This document shows positions 13,184 to 54,979 of a stretch of 64,000 bases of DNA, in pieces. Location: assembly GCF_033954835.1 (NCBI RefSeq), contig NZ_CP121471.1:4024501-4088500 (forward strand), written 5' to 3'. The notes beneath the pieces are model-generated. The model ran no database searches and was not told the origin of the DNA. It saw only the letters and a list, made by a program, of their open reading frames with translations. Made by a program: the position numbers and the translations under genes. This stretch comes from Thiorhodovibrio frisius. GTDB lineage: Bacteria; Pseudomonadota; Gammaproteobacteria; Chromatiales; Chromatiaceae. Every line of letters starts with the position of its first letter. The first letter of the stretch is position 1.

Positions 13184-15849
<2,666 letters not shown>

Positions 15850-15870: not shown

Positions 15871-16055
15871 TATACCGAAACCCTTTGAAATTTCGGCGCG
15901 TTTTGGGCCAAGTGACGGCCACGAGGGACGCCGTGAATACATCCCTATTTGCATCTAGAGAGGCTACTTCCTGGCGGCGTCCCTGATCCGATCAAGGACC
16001 GCCGAGACCCCCGTGGCCGTCACCCGACCGAAAACCATTCGTTTGCGATTGGTAT
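15871..16055 (+). repeat. Palindromic dispersed element, copy A
   Basis: A full copy of the roughly 160-185 bp repeat seen also at 28.3, 40.1 and 51.9 kb. It begins TATACCGAAACCCTTTGAAA and ends GTTTGCGATTGGTAT. Inner arms GTGACGGCCACG and CGTGGCCGTCAC are inverted. It lies between the start codons of the divergent SPOR gene and uppP, so it could affect either promoter. It has no coding capacity of its own. Confidence 0.85.
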
Positions 16056-28288: not shown

Positions 28289-28460
28289 TATACCGAAACC
28301 CTTTAAGATTTCGGCTCGTTCGGGGCCGGGTGCTGGCCACGGTGGACACCGTAAATCCATCCATGGAGGCTTCCCGGCGGTGTCCCTGATCTGATCAAGG
28401 GCCGCCGAGACCCCCGTGACCATCACCCGACCCAAAACCGAAAACCATTTGCGATGGGTA
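28289..28460 (+). repeat. Palindromic dispersed element, copy B
   Basis: Same orientation as copy A. It begins TATACCGAAACCCTTTAAGA and ends CATTTGCGATGGGTAT. The inner arms have diverged (TGCTGGCCACGG against CCCGTGACCATCAC), so the long hairpin is weaker than in copies C and D. It sits upstream of galU and directly beyond the 3' end of lapB. Confidence 0.8.
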
Positions 28461-28471
28461 TACGCGTGAAT

Positions 28472-40078: not shown

Positions 40079-40252
40079 TACCAATCGCAAATGGTTTTCG
40101 GTTTTGGGCCGGGTGACGGCCACGGGGGGGCTCAGCGGCAAGGATGCCGCCGGGAAGCCTCCCTGAATGCAATGGGGGGAGGTATTCACGGCGCCCCCCG
40201 TGGCTGTCACCCGACCCAGAACGAGCCGCAATTTCGAAGGGTTTCGGTATAC
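40079..40252 (-). repeat. Palindromic dispersed element, copy C
   Basis: Inverted relative to copies A and B. It begins TACCAATCGCAAATGGTTTT and ends GGGTTTCGGTATA. Arms GTGACGGCCACGGGGG and CCCCCCGTGGCTGTCAC are nearly perfect complements, so a long hairpin is expected. It occupies most of the 307-base space between the divergent mtnA and mtaD start codons. Confidence 0.88.
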
Positions 40253-49275: not shown

Positions 49276-50124
49276 TCAGGGCGTGCGCGCAACCGCCCAA
49301 ACATCGACACGCTCGGCGCCTGCCTGGCGCAGCACCCGCGCCAGCTCTCCAACCGTGGCGCCGGTGGTGACCACATCGTCGATAATGGCGACATGGCGCG
49401 CCATCAATGGCCGTCGCACGCGAAAGGCGTTGCGCACGTTGCTTTGGCGCTCTTCGCGCGCAAGCGTGAGCTGCGGCGGCGTCGCGACCACCCGCTCGAC
49501 CCCGCTGCGGTCTGCGTCAATCCCCAGCGCGCGGCCTGCGACCCGCGCTACTTCCAGCGACTGGTTGTAACCGCGCTGGCGCAGCCGTGAAGGATGCAGC
49601 GGAACCGGCACCAACAGGTCCGGCAATGATGCATCGGGTTGCCAGCGTGCCGCCTCAGCCAGGAGTTGACCGAACAGTCGCCCCAGGTGCAGCCGCTGGC
49701 GAAATTTAAAATCGCCAACCAGCCGAGCCACCGCACCCTGATAGCGAAAGAGCGCAATGCATCGATCATAGGCCGGCGGCTGGCGCTGACACTTTCCGCA
49801 GACAATGCCATCTGGCGTACCAGCCGGGAGCGGCAGCGCACAGCGCTCGCAACTTGGCGCAACATCCGGCAGGTCCGCCAGACACCCCAGGCACAGATCC
49901 AGCTCGCCAAAACCCGCAGCGCCACAGAGCACGCAAGTCGGCGGATAAGCGCTCTCAAACGCCAATCGCAGCAGTTGCCTGCTCAATCGCTGAGCCAGTC
50001 GCCGGGCCGCTGTCAACCGCCGAAGGCCATCATGGTTGACAGCCTCGGCAATGGCCTTAAGCTTGTCTGCTTTTGCCCCGAGGCGCGGCCCTTTCTCCGC
50101 ACCCTGCTCCGGGCGCCTATTCAC
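49276..50124 (-). CDS. comF: ComF family phosphoribosyltransferase-like protein
   Basis: A protein of 282 residues if the GTG at 50124 is used; the frame is open to 50184 but that would overlap bioB. The N-terminal zinc-finger cysteines are CVLC, DLCLGC, SCERC and VCGKC. The PRTase domain ends with the PRPP loop [17 protein letters not shown]. ComF proteins support natural transformation (single-stranded DNA uptake) in several bacteria. The start is uncertain. It diverges from bioB with almost no spacer, as in many Gammaproteobacteria. Confidence 0.88.
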
Positions 50125-50136
50125 GGAATTTCCACC

Positions 50137-51156
50137 ATGCCATTGGATCTCGCCCCAGATTCGCACCCGACAGACTTGCGCCATGACTGGTCGCAGCAGG
50201 ATGCCGAAGCCCTGCTGAGTCAGCCCTTAAATGATCTGCTGTTCGCCGCCCAGCAGGCCCATCGCCAGCATTTCGAGCCCAATCGGGTGCAGGTCAGCAC
50301 CCTGCTCAGCATCAAAACCGGTGCCTGCCCGGAGGACTGCGGCTACTGCTCCCAGAGCGCCAAACATGACACCGGGCTTGAGCGCGAGCGCCTGCTGTCG
50401 CTTGATGAGGTCACCGAGGCCGCGCGCGCGGCAAAGGCCACCGGCGCCACCCGCTTTTGCATGGGGGCAGCCTGGCGCAACCCAAGCGACAGCCATCTTG
50501 AGCAGGTCATGGCCATGATCGCGGCGGCGCATGATCTCGGGCTTGAAACCTGCGTCACCCTAGGCATGCTGACCCTCGCCCAGGCACAACGGCTGAAAGA
50601 CGTTGGGCTGGATTACTACAACCACAACCTGGACACCTCGCCCGAATTTTACGGGCAAGTAATCAGCACCCGCACCTATCAGGAACGGCTCGACACCCTG
50701 GAGCATATCCGCGCCGTCGGTCTCAAGACCTGTAGCGGCGGTATTCTCGGCATGGGCGAAGCGCGCGCTGATCGTGCCGGGCTACTGTGCCAGCTTGCCA
50801 ATCTGCCGGCGCATCCGGAATCCGTGCCCATCAACCTGCTGGTCAAGGTCGAGGGCACGCCACTAGCAGACGCGCCCGCGCTGGACCCCTTTGAATTCGT
50901 CCGCACCGTTGCAGCCGCACGAATCATGATGCCGGCCTCCTATGTGCGACTATCCGCCGGACGTGCGACCATGAGCGACGAACTCCAGGCTCTGTGCTAC
51001 CTGGCTGGCGCCAACTCCATCTTCTATGGCGAGCGCCTGCTGACAACCGAGAACACCGGCGCCAACCGCGATCTCGCCCTCTTTGAGCGCCTGGGCCTTG
51101 CGTTTGAAGCCATGCCGCACGAGGGGCGCAACGAGCCCGGCGGCTGCTTTAAATGA
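50137..51156 (+). CDS. bioB: Biotin synthase
   Basis: A protein of 339 residues from the ATG at 50137. The radical-SAM motif is [17 protein letters not shown] (CxxxCxxC), followed by [12 protein letters not shown] and [13 protein letters not shown]. It inserts sulfur into dethiobiotin. It is the first gene of bioBFHCD and overlaps bioF by four bases (ATGA). Confidence 0.97.
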
Positions 51157-52595
51157 CTGCCGCAATCCCTGCCGACCCGGAGCCCTCCCATCGGGCTCGC
51201 GCGCTCGGCTCGCAACTTGCGGAACTCGCCGACCGCCAACTCTATCGGCGCCGACGGCTGTGCGAAAGCCCCCAGGCTCCGCTGATGGAGGTCGAGGGGC
51301 GCACTCTGCTGACCTTTTGCAGCAACGACTACCTCGGCCTGGCCGCCGATGCGCGGGTGATCGAAACCTTTACCCGCGCCGCTGGCGAGTTCGGCGTCGG
51401 CAGCGGCGCATCCCATCTGATCAATGGCCATAGCCGCTACCATCACCAGCTTGAGGAAGCCCTGGCCGACTTCACCCAAAGACCGCGGGCGCTGCTCTTT
51501 TCCACAGGCTATATGGCCAACCTTGGGGTGATCAGCGCACTGGCAGGGCGCGGCGAGCAGATTCTGTGCGACCGGCTCAATCATGCCTCGCTGATCGACG
51601 GCGCGCGCTTGAGTGGCGCGCGTCCACGCCGCTATCGCCATGCGGACCCGGCCGATCTCCAGCGCCTGCTAGCCAGCGCCCGGAGTGACAAAGCCACGGC
51701 CATGATAATAAGCGACGGCGTCTTTAGCATGGACGGCGACCTGGCGCCCGTGCCCGAGCTGGCCCGAGCGGCAAAACAGGCAGATGCCTGGCTGCTGATC
51801 GATGACGCCCATGGTCTGGGTGTGATCGGAGCGGATGGGCGCGGCACCCTGGCAGAAATCGAGGCGCAGGCCACATCCGCGCGGGATGCGAACGATACCA
51901 ATCGCAAACTGGTTGTCGGTTTTGGGTCGGGTGACGGCCACGGGGGTCTCGGCGGCAGGACGCCGCCGGGAAGCCTAGAGGGAGGTATTCACGGCGTCCC
52001 CCGTGGCCGTCACCCGGCCCAGAACGAGCCGAAATCTCAAAGGGGTTCGGTATATACGCTTGGCGAGCAGCAAGTCCCCATTCTGGTTGGCACCCTGGGC
52101 AAAGCCTTCGGCACCTTCGGGGCCTTTGTCGCCGGCAGCGACGCACTGATTGAAACCCTGATTCAGCGCGCGCGCAGCTACATCTACACCACCGCCCTGC
52201 CGCCTGCGGTCGCGGCAGCCAGCTTAACATCACTTGAGCTGATGCAGGCCGAGCCCTGGCGTCGGGACCATCTCGGCCAACTGGTGCGTTACTTCCGTCA
52301 GGGCGCTGCCGAGCTTGGCCTGCCGCTGATGCCTTCGATCACGCCCATTCAGCCGCTGTTGGCAGGTTCCTCCGCGCGCGCGCTCGACTGGAGCCGCCGG
52401 CTTGAGGCGCGGGGGTTGCTGGTGCCCGCCATTCGACCGCCGACCGTCCCGCAAGGCCACGCCCGGCTGCGCATCAGTTTCTCGGCCAGCCACCGGATTG
52501 AGGATATCGACCGGCTACTTGAAGCACTGGCAGCACTACCGACAACCGATCACCCAAGCACTGATCACCCCAAGCAGGGAGCACCAGCCACATGA
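51153..52595 (+). CDS. bioF: 8-amino-7-oxononanoate synthase with in-frame repeat insertion
   Basis: A protein of 480 residues, about 90 longer than usual BioF. Normal features: [43 protein letters not shown], and the PLP-lysine segment [15 protein letters not shown] with Lys317. Residues about 248-301 are translated from copy D of the palindromic element, rich in Gly/Arg/Pro, placed in a loop between the DAHG strand and the strand leading to the lysine. The frame stays open through it. The rest of the extra length is terminal tail. BioF makes 8-amino-7-oxononanoate from pimeloyl-ACP and alanine. Whether the enzyme still works is unknown, though the downstream bio genes are intact. Confidence 0.93.
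51895..52054 (-). repeat. Palindromic dispersed element, copy D, inside bioF
   Basis: Same orientation as copy C. Begins ATACCAATCGCAAACTGGTT and ends GGGGTTCGGTATA. The arms GTGACGGCCACGGGGG (51931-51946) and CCCCCGTGGCCGTCAC (51999-52014) are a perfect 16-bp inverted repeat. It is wholly inside the bioF reading frame with no stop codon. Confidence 0.92.
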
Positions 52596-53344
52596 GCCCT
52601 GACCCGCTCGTTTTATTGCATGGCTGGGGCATGAACCCGGCCATCTGGTCCAGCTTACCAGACAGCCTGGCCGCCGGGCGCGAGCGCTGTGCGCTCGCCC
52701 TGCCCGGCCATGCCGGTGCTCCCTGGCAACCCGACTGGACCAGGCTGCCCGATTGGGCCGATGCCTGTCTTGCGCAGGCGCCCGAGCAGGCGATCTGGCT
52801 TGGCTGGTCACTTGGCGGTCTGGTTGCGCTCCAGGCCGCACGCCAAGCATCCAAGCGGGTCAAGGCATTGATTCTAATTAGCAGCACGCCGCGTTTCACC
52901 CGGGCCGTTGACTGGCAAGTCGCCATGCCGGAGGAGACGCTGGCACAGTTTCACAGCACCCTGCTCGAGGATACGAACGCTACGCTTCAGCGCTTTCTCA
53001 CTTTGCAGGTGCGCGGCAGCGATGAGGCGCCAAAATTGCTCAAGCAGCTCCGCCTGGCGCTCAAAACCGCGCCCGTCGCCCAGCCCGAGGCGCTGGGCAT
53101 CGGGCTAGACTTGCTGCGAGATGAAGACCTCCGCGGCCCGCTGCCAGACATCCGCCAACCCACGCTCTGGTTGTTTGGCGAGCGCGACACCCTGGTGCCA
53201 GCCGCCGTGGCCAAGCGCATCACCATCCTGCATCCGCAGGCGCAGGTCGAGTGCCTGCAAGGCGCCGGGCATGCGCCCTTTCTGTCGCATGCCCAGGCCG
53301 TGAGTGAGCTGATCCATGGTTTTCTTTCCGAGGTGGTCAGTTGA
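52592..53344 (+). CDS. bioH: Pimeloyl-ACP methyl ester esterase
   Basis: A protein of 250 residues. It has LLHGWGMNPAIW, the nucleophile elbow GWSLGGLVAL, FGERDTLVP with the acid, and GAGHAPFLSH with the His. It frees pimeloyl-ACP from its methyl ester after the BioC-dependent chain elongation. Its start overlaps the bioF stop by four bases, and its stop overlaps bioC. Confidence 0.95.
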   Translation: MSPDPLVLLHGWGMNPAIWSSLPDSLAAGRERCALALPGHAGAPWQPDWTRLPDWADACLAQAPEQAIWLGWSLGGLVALQAARQASKRVKALILISSTPRFTRAVDWQVAMPEETLAQFHSTLLEDTNATLQRFLTLQVRGSDEAPKLLKQLRLALKTAPVAQPEALGIGLDLLRDEDLRGPLPDIRQPTLWLFGERDTLVPAAVAKRITILHPQAQVECLQGAGHAPFLSHAQAVSELIHGFLSEVVS

Positions 53345-54255
53345 GCGTGCCACCCAGCCAACAGCAGACGAAGATGTCAACCGGCGCCATCGATAAGAGC
53401 GCCGCGCGCCGCTCCTTTGAACGCGCGGCAAGCAGCTATGACGCCGCCGCCCTGTTACAGCGAGAAGTCGGCGCGCGTCTGCTCGAGCGCCTGGACTATG
53501 TGCGTCTACAACCCGCCACTGTGTTGGATCTCGGCTGCGGCACCGGCCTGGCACTCAATGACTTGTGCCGACGCTATCGCAACGCCCGCGTCATCGGCCT
53601 GGATTTTGCCACCGGCATGCTCACGCGCGCCCGACGCTGCGGCCACTGGCGCAACCGCCCGCGCGCCCTGTGCGCCGACATCGACCGGCTGCCGTTGGCG
53701 GACAACTCCGTCGATTTGGTGTTCTCCAACGCGACCCTGCAATGGTCGAACGACCTCAGCGCCTGCTTCAGCGAGCTTTACCGCGTCCTGCGGCCAAAGG
53801 GGCTGCTGATGTTCACCACCTTCGGCCCGGACACCCTGATCGAACTGCGCCGCGCCTGGGCCGAGGCCGACGGCGGCGAGCATGTCGTCCCTTTCATGGA
53901 CATGCACGACATCGGCGACATGCTAGTGCGCACGCGCTTTGCCGACCCCGTGATGGACTGCGAACGTCTGACCCTGACCTATTCAGAGGTCACCGACCTG
54001 ATGGCCGACATGAAATCTCTCGGCACCCAAAACCGCTTACACAGCCGCCAGCGCGGACTGACCGGCCGCGAGCGACTGCGCCGCATGACCGCCGCCTACG
54101 AGCGGCAACGCCAGGATGGTCGCCTACCCTCGACCTGGGAGGTGATCTACGGACAGGCATGGATGGCAGCAGAGAAAGTGCCCGCGCAGCAGCTGACCGA
54201 CCAGGGCGTCGCCATCCCAGTCAGCGCCATTGGGCGCCGCCCCATGTCTGGATAA
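53341..54255 (+). CDS. bioC: Malonyl-ACP O-methyltransferase
   Basis: A protein of 304 residues from a TTG that overlaps the bioH stop (TTGA) and has GAGG seven bases upstream; an ATG at 53374 is the alternative. Features: RRSFERAASSYDAAALLQ, the SAM motif VLDLGCGTGLAL, LPLADNSVDLVFSN and LMFTTFGPDTLIELR. It methylates malonyl-ACP to disguise it for pimelate synthesis by the fatty-acid machinery. Fourth gene of the operon. Confidence 0.94.
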   Translation: MSVPPSQQQTKMSTGAIDKSAARRSFERAASSYDAAALLQREVGARLLERLDYVRLQPATVLDLGCGTGLALNDLCRRYRNARVIGLDFATGMLTRARRCGHWRNRPRALCADIDRLPLADNSVDLVFSNATLQWSNDLSACFSELYRVLRPKGLLMFTTFGPDTLIELRRAWAEADGGEHVVPFMDMHDIGDMLVRTRFADPVMDCERLTLTYSEVTDLMADMKSLGTQNRLHSRQRGLTGRERLRRMTAAYERQRQDGRLPSTWEVIYGQAWMAAEKVPAQQLTDQGVAIPVSAIGRRPMSG

Positions 54256-54262
54256 CAGCTCG

Positions 54263-54979
54263 ATGAGCAGAGGCCTTTTCATCACCGGCACAGACACCGG
54301 CGCGGGCAAGACCCTGGTCGCCGCTGGTCTGCTGCGCGCCCTGCAAGCCCAGGGCGCCAGCGCGCTTGGCATGAAGCCGATCGCCTCGGGCTGCCAACAG
54401 ACCCGAGAGGGCCTGCGCAACGCCGATGCCCTCGCTCTGCTGGCCGCCAGCTCCCAGCCCCTGCCCTACAACCGGGTCAATCCCATCGCGTACGCGCCAC
54501 CCATCGCGCCGCACCTTGCGGCGGAATCCAGCGGACAGCGGATCGATCCCGACCGCATCCTGTCCGCTTACCGCTGGCTCGGCACCCAGGCCGACTGGGT
54601 GGTGGTGGAAGGCGTCGGCGGCTGGCATGTCCCGCTCAGCGAACAGCTGATGGTGCGCGATCTGCCCGCGCTGCTTGGCGACCCCGAGCCCCTGCCCGTG
54701 GTGCTGGCGGTTGGTCTGCGGCTCGGTTGTATCAATCACGCTCTGCTAACCGCCGCCGCCATCGCTGCCGACGGCTGCCACCTGGCTGCTTGGGTCGCCA
54801 CCCAGACCGACCCCGAGATGCTAGCCGTCGAAGCCAATATCGCCGCGCTAAGATCCCGCTTATCGGCTCCCTGCCTTGGATGCATCCCTAATCTGCCAAA
54901 CCCCACACCCGAGGCCGTCGCGAGCCATTTGGATTGCGCTCCACTGCAAGCGGGATCGGCACCGAGCCAATGCGGGTAA
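54263..54979 (+). CDS. bioD: Dethiobiotin synthetase
   Basis: A protein of 238 residues from the ATG at 54263, seven bases after bioC; the frame extends upstream into bioC. It has the P-loop FITGTDTGAGKT, GMKPIASGC, NPIAYAPPIAPHLAA and VVEGVGGWHVPL. It closes the ureido ring of biotin using CO2 and ATP. It ends the bioBFHCD operon; bioA is not in the window. Confidence 0.95.
   Translation: MSRGLFITGTDTGAGKTLVAAGLLRALQAQGASALGMKPIASGCQQTREGLRNADALALLAASSQPLPYNRVNPIAYAPPIAPHLAAESSGQRIDPDRILSAYRWLGTQADWVVVEGVGGWHVPLSEQLMVRDLPALLGDPEPLPVVLAVGLRLGCINHALLTAAAIAADGCHLAAWVATQTDPEMLAVEANIAALRSRLSAPCLGCIPNLPNPTPEAVASHLDCAPLQAGSAPSQCG

Follow-up and report, generated by a model that had tools for sequence, protein, structure and literature searches.

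The bioF gene of Thiorhodovibrio frisius carries a palindromic DNA element within its reading frame, which raises the question of how a dispersed repeat came to be translated inside a conserved enzyme and whether the enlarged protein still works. The window analysed here comprises 64,000 nucleotides (positions 4,024,501 to 4,088,500 of contig NZ_CP121471.1); all coordinates are window positions on the forward strand unless stated otherwise. The gene, recognised from the ORF list and a profile match, extends from 51153 to 52595 and codes for a 480-residue 8-amino-7-oxononanoate synthase, which exceeded the TIGR00858 bioF cut-off in the profile search (467.5 vs 426.45 bits). The match was split into two stretches, the first of which ends at residue 239. 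Residues D217, D218, A219, H220 and G221, which form the conserved motif most closely preceding the loop considered below (DDAHG codons at 51801-51815), and K317, the PLP lysine by alignment (codon 52101-52103), are invariant in the homologue alignment. An ORF holding bioB (49639-51156, with a profile match from about 50185) lies directly upstream, and bioH (52592-53344, overlapping the end of bioF), bioC (53341-54255) and bioD (54230-54979) follow, according to the ORF list and profiles. On the chromosome, a single contig of 5,417,120 bases, bioA was found elsewhere, above its profile cut-off. A second intact bioF, an objection that the original prediction had raised against itself, was not detected, the genome giving a single bioF match at E<=1e-30. 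The bioF gene is thus intact and belongs to a biotin pathway that is complete by gene content.

Model alignment places the element, of 161 bp, at 51894-52054. It has the form TATACC...GGTATA, the first T being replaced by G in this copy, and codes in frame for residues 248-300. The original prediction that a repeat copy sits wholly within the bioF frame without a stop codon is therefore borne out, with two small corrections: the limits given earlier (51895-52054) were one base too narrow, and the insert, described as about 54 residues (248-301), adds 53. These extra residues are rich in Gly, Arg and Pro and stop some 17 positions short of the PLP lysine. A fold search identified a main hairpin with arms of 28 nt at 51919-51946 and 51998-52025, which are 93% complementary; direct reading showed 19 bp of perfect pairing, so that the inverted repeat was real and its perfect part longer than the 16 bp first announced. 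Between the arms, the consensus and the fold indicate a small inner hairpin (TCTCGGCGGC/GCCGCCGGGA, 51947-51971), where the short and long forms of the family differ by 14 bp. The folding z-score of the element was -8.1 as DNA and -9.8 as RNA, with none of 200 shuffled sequences equally stable, and the RNA fold reached -102.4 kcal/mol. The bioF copy matches the family consensus at all but 4 of 161 positions and is therefore young. All four differences alter an amino acid, and thus give no sign of purifying selection on the insert, while stop codons were neither gained nor removed. The arms had been taken as evidence of either recent insertion or selection for the palindrome. The low divergence agrees with the former; the latter finds no argument here, because the family consensus has the same arms, which would make their near-perfection a property of the family.

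The length of the protein bears on how the element arrived. His220 and Lys317 are 97 residues apart in T. frisius BioF. Among 34 other BioF proteins (the 29 best-scoring loci of other genomes plus 5 more, a choice that favours insert-free proteins), the spacing from the DDAH histidine to the catalytic lysine is 32 (n=28), 31 (n=3) or 29 (n=1) residues, whereas the nearest congener (G001) has 44 and the other (G002) 72. The element is absent from all 34. By segment coordinates, 17 further genomes have at most 27 nt left at the insertion point; three (G007, G038 and G053) gave no usable segment pair, and four had no bioF match. The difference between 97 and 44 is 53 codons or 159 nt, that is, the 161-nt element minus one TA, and insertion with duplication of a TA would for this reason explain both the added length and the preserved frame. 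The exact agreement could be partly due to chance, as a loop of variable length might arrive at it through indels. For an empty-site comparison, five sites were searched in the two congeners and two could be aligned. The element was absent from G001 at both and present in G002 at one, with spacers too diverged for a duplication to be read.

The approximate remains of the loop into which the element fell, enlarged in the genus as a whole, lie by alignment at 51858-51893 to its left and 52055-52072 to its right, and the loops of the congeners are 12 (G001) and 40 (G002) residues longer than usual. Part of the extra length of BioF is thus a genus trait, and the loop struck by the element was of variable length beforehand. 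This accords with the proposal that the loop ahead of the PLP lysine is permissive, and it qualifies the expectation that the whole segment would be unique on alignment with homologues: the element is unique, the added length only in part. No relative was seen to have the same segment without the repeat DNA; the relatives lack the segment itself. The longer loop of G002 (L048) contains an Ala/Glu-rich stretch dissimilar to the element, and an unfiltered model search of both congener bioF loci, in which the loops were considered as old element copies, returned matches at chance level only. That this loop is a recurrent landing and decay site, with the extra residues of the congeners as older, eroded insertions and the palindrome as the newest layer, is rather unlikely; if true, it would offer a snapshot of a repeat turning into a protein segment.

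Large inserts are not unheard of in BioF, since the enzyme of a genome from another genus of the same family (G023, L237:571-1935, outside the best-scoring homologue set) has about 60 extra residues. They lie in a different loop, upstream of DGVFSMDGD, where the spacing is 106 vs 40-46 residues in the other BioF measured. This segment was rejected as an element insertion, its best DNA match to the element model being 2.7 bits. A weak family copy (27 bits) lies directly upstream of the same gene (L237:410-557).

The element belongs to a dispersed family, as first proposed: the window holds four copies including that in bioF, the other three, located by model search at 15872-16055 (reverse strand), 28290-28461 (reverse strand) and 40079-40250, being outside predicted genes, and 70 places with full or partial copies were examined in the genome. 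A DNA search of the chromosome yielded 89 matches (40 of 123 candidates scored), and a model built from 27 copies yielded 115, both strands of the palindrome being counted. The 27 aligned copies share the TATACC and GGTATA ends as well as the hairpin, and are 159-178 nt long, in two size forms of 161 and roughly 175 nt that differ by 14 nt at the inner hairpin. Frame +0 is open in the consensus and in 15 of the 27 copies, and the net length is divisible by three in 10 of them. Matches were found in 6 of 55 genomes, T. frisius included: three Thiorhodovibrio and three from other genera of the same family, in one of which, G023, the 102 model matches belong to a relative of the palindromic family that has diverged further. 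Several loci (L123, L124, L128, L135 and L136, and likewise L138, L140, L227, L234 and L236) hold internally deleted copies with both types of end, the shortest of about 30 nt; these deletions look like loss of the hairpin by slippage. Around one copy shared by T. frisius (G000, about 396300-398000) and G002 (compared as loci L013, about 1200-2900, and L031), some 1.7 kb are mostly 94-100% identical between the two species and are flanked by sequence of 55-85% identity, so that the element looks as if carried between them by recent exchange. Two tandem arrays were also noted in the window, one at 14738-15271 (spaced at 12 and 18 nt, with a 204-nt reference recurring in 21 overlapping copies) and one at 2093-2284 (24-nt repeat, six overlapping copies of a 72-nt reference).

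The location of the copies relative to genes was assessed with a hexamer model trained on the window, of which predicted genes cover 87%. Only one of 69 copies, that in bioF, lies inside an uninterrupted predicted gene with at least 30 nt to spare on both sides, and two more overlap a predicted gene by more than 60 nt. Random placement would put copies inside genes in 66% of cases within the window and in 71% within the sequence flanking the copies; at the lower rate, the binomial probability of one in 69 is 8.7e-31. The copies of the two congeners showed the same scarcity, with none of 32 (3 overlapping in part) and none of 8 inside genes against 78% and 60% expected in flanks. The count covers copies among the matches listed by the model search; a 25-nt fragment (L121) and four weaker places were set aside, as were the deleted forms and every copy in G023. 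It sees uninterrupted genes only and gene-breaking insertions escape it; it thus indicates that translated copies are rare and does not address how many genes were destroyed. A second score based on the same hexamer table singled out bioF as the sole locus of 70 with a strong two-sided coding signal and one open frame. Other coding copies were sought by comparing the spanning ORFs of ten loci with Pfam; two matched (SSF and Gluconate_2-dh3), and neither is a domain insertion, because both matches start past the element.

The family is therefore a mostly intergenic repeat with one translated exception. Its members are short (159-178 nt in the 27 copies), dispersed over 70 places and without a transposase gene, and end in terminal inverted repeats of 6 bp (TATACC...GGTATA), which is short for a MITE. 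Since the search brought up no autonomous partner and the duplication was not observed directly, we call it MITE-like and stop short of naming it a MITE. The search for a transposase sharing the element's ends covered IS630-type genes: no such (DDE_3) gene was found in the T. frisius genome, and the family ends were absent from nine IS630-type loci. An IS630-like element of G002, about 1.2 kb long with CTAGTACC-type ends and examined in 11 near-identical copies (L147-L157), lay near a family-end match and was considered as the parent; it was rejected, its ends reading CTAGT(A/T)CC in 10 of 10 copies shown. The T. frisius genome gave 13 matches to Y1_Tnp transposase genes. No longer element was seen at nineteen lone 3' ends read by eye about 250 nt inward, nor at eleven lone 5' ends for which the partner end was searched; several of the lone ends are internally deleted copies and the remainder look decayed.

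Starting from what the sequence itself provides (a dispersed family, one copy in frame within an intact gene, a difference of 53 codons and the rarity of copies inside uninterrupted genes), we consider it very probable that a MITE-like element recently inserted at a TA in bioF, in frame, and was tolerated in a variable loop of an enzyme that most likely still works. A non-autonomous element dispersed in Thiorhodovibrio, mobilised by a transposase that may since have been lost or is yet to be identified, would have duplicated its TA target on insertion. The short form would add 159 nt, a multiple of three, with one of its open frames falling in register, so that the ribosome would read through the element and BioF would gain its 53 residues as part of a stable, active protein. 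Tolerance would come from the position between the DDAHG strand and the strand carrying the PLP lysine, in a loop that was already longer and variable in the genus and that presumably lies on the protein surface. For the insert as such, neutrality or a slight cost is most likely.

The most serious challenge to this account is that bioF might be a fresh pseudogene, still open but inactivated by the 53 residues and too recently hit for decay to have begun. A copy as young as this one (4/161) would be expected to leave the frame open even without function, and the structure models are unusable on this point, two AlphaFold runs with 6 and 7 sequences having given mean pLDDT values of 47.5 and 49.0, both below 50; scans of viral contigs for homologues added little alignment depth. 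Over 369 codons away from gapped regions, bioF compared with that of the nearest congener has a dN/dS of 0.095, and with the third species as reference the T. frisius branch carries no surplus dN (0.102 vs 0.108). Both results count towards a working enzyme, but the ratio spans the whole branch and says little on the short time since insertion. Against loss of function stand the absence of any substitute for this bioF at the threshold given above, the presence of the remaining pathway genes above their cut-offs, and the additional 12 and 40 residues at the same point in the congeners. Moreover, since the other copies scored stay out of uninterrupted genes, survival of this one suggests tolerance. 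The medium listed for T. frisius 970 in the part consulted of PMC10609205 (CRs medium) contains salts, bicarbonate, sulfide and trace elements and no vitamins, with acetate added for stocks, and the word biotin is absent from the main text of that paper. If the sequenced strain is 970, this suggests that it makes biotin with the enlarged BioF; trace biotin from agar or inoculum, or from components of the cited recipe, may also support growth. Taken together, these observations make an inactive gene improbable and a working enzyme most likely.

Other explanations have less in their favour. RNase III cleaves the NEMIS hairpins of Neisseria, and the hairpin in the bioBFHCD mRNA might likewise be a site of processing or attenuation and so govern the balance between upstream and downstream enzymes. 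The very stable RNA fold noted above is consistent with such a role, and similar small repeats do act on mRNA, as described in the part of PMC2229807 consulted. A cut inside bioF would, however, destroy the gene's own message, the bioF of both congeners lies between bioB and bioH and lacks the element, and the hairpin is common to all 27 aligned copies; a role as nucleic acid is thus very unlikely. The idea that the family evolved to be translated within proteins, as in Rickettsia, with which the original prediction had compared it, draws on the similar size of the palindrome, its in-frame position in a conserved enzyme and the open consensus frame. Against it stand the gene-placement counts in T. 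frisius and its congeners and the fact that just 10 of 27 copies have a net length that is a multiple of three, and we give it hardly any chance. Finally, repeats are classic sites of misassembly, and a copy could in principle have been misplaced into bioF. Long reads far exceed the element in length, the assembly published for T. frisius 970, the matching strain, rests on PacBio data at 911x, and the gene halves on either side of the element align to homologues without loss, so that an artefact, also named beforehand as a possible objection, can be practically dismissed.

If recent insertion into a tolerant loop is indeed the explanation, bioF offers a recent insertion made by nature, in an enzyme whose activity can be scored by growth without biotin and whose relatives show the loop before the event, and hence a clean test of how well the core of a PLP enzyme tolerates inserts. 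Coding palindromes are best known from host-restricted bacteria; here, the scarcity of copies in intact genes can be set against one survivor outside that group.

The comparison with known systems draws on the parts consulted of the papers cited. Rickettsia palindromic elements (RPEs) are palindromes of 105-146 bp translated in frame inside conserved proteins, and a guanylate kinase with an RPE insert was reported to be translated and active (PMC2229807). In mechanism only, the bioF copy behaves like an RPE, a likeness drawn from descriptions and not from sequences; a large proportion of RPEs lie within genes, whereas frequent in-frame insertion is not a trait of the Thiorhodovibrio family (1/69), and the host is a free-living gammaproteobacterium. 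A coding palindrome outside Rickettsia is also less surprising than first thought, as in-frame fusions of small palindromic repeats are known from other bacteria (PMC2229807, PMC10969869). The dispersed palindromes of the REP/REPIN type with RAYT genes recall the present family, and Y1_Tnp genes are present in the T. frisius genome, but REPs are units of 20-40 bp (PMC3733652), in contrast to a unit of 159-178 nt with TA ends. QMITE2 of Coxiella burnetii resembles it in length (150-190 bp), in copy number (about 50), in having a large and a small version and in its mostly intergenic or 3' untranslated location (PMC5896051); it carries a GTAG REP and has direct repeats of 7-11 nt, which were not evident by eye in the flanks of the Thiorhodovibrio copies. 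Correia/NEMIS, ERIC/RU-1, RUP and Yersinia YPAL/RU-2 repeats share a size of about 100-200 bp, a long hairpin and a short terminal inverted repeat, the first three of them also the TA ends, and in-frame fusions have been reported for some (PMC2229807). The present family differs from these in being a sequence family of its own, confined among the 55 genomes to 6 of the same bacterial family. No prior account of such a repeat in Chromatiaceae was found in the literature on miniature inverted-repeats, nor any earlier report of an in-frame insertion in BioF, in searches that left subscription literature mostly uncovered. In its anatomy, the element is closest to the small TA-ended MITE-like repeats (Correia/NEMIS, ERIC and RUP), and the bioF case is a new instance of a known phenomenon and a good natural experiment.
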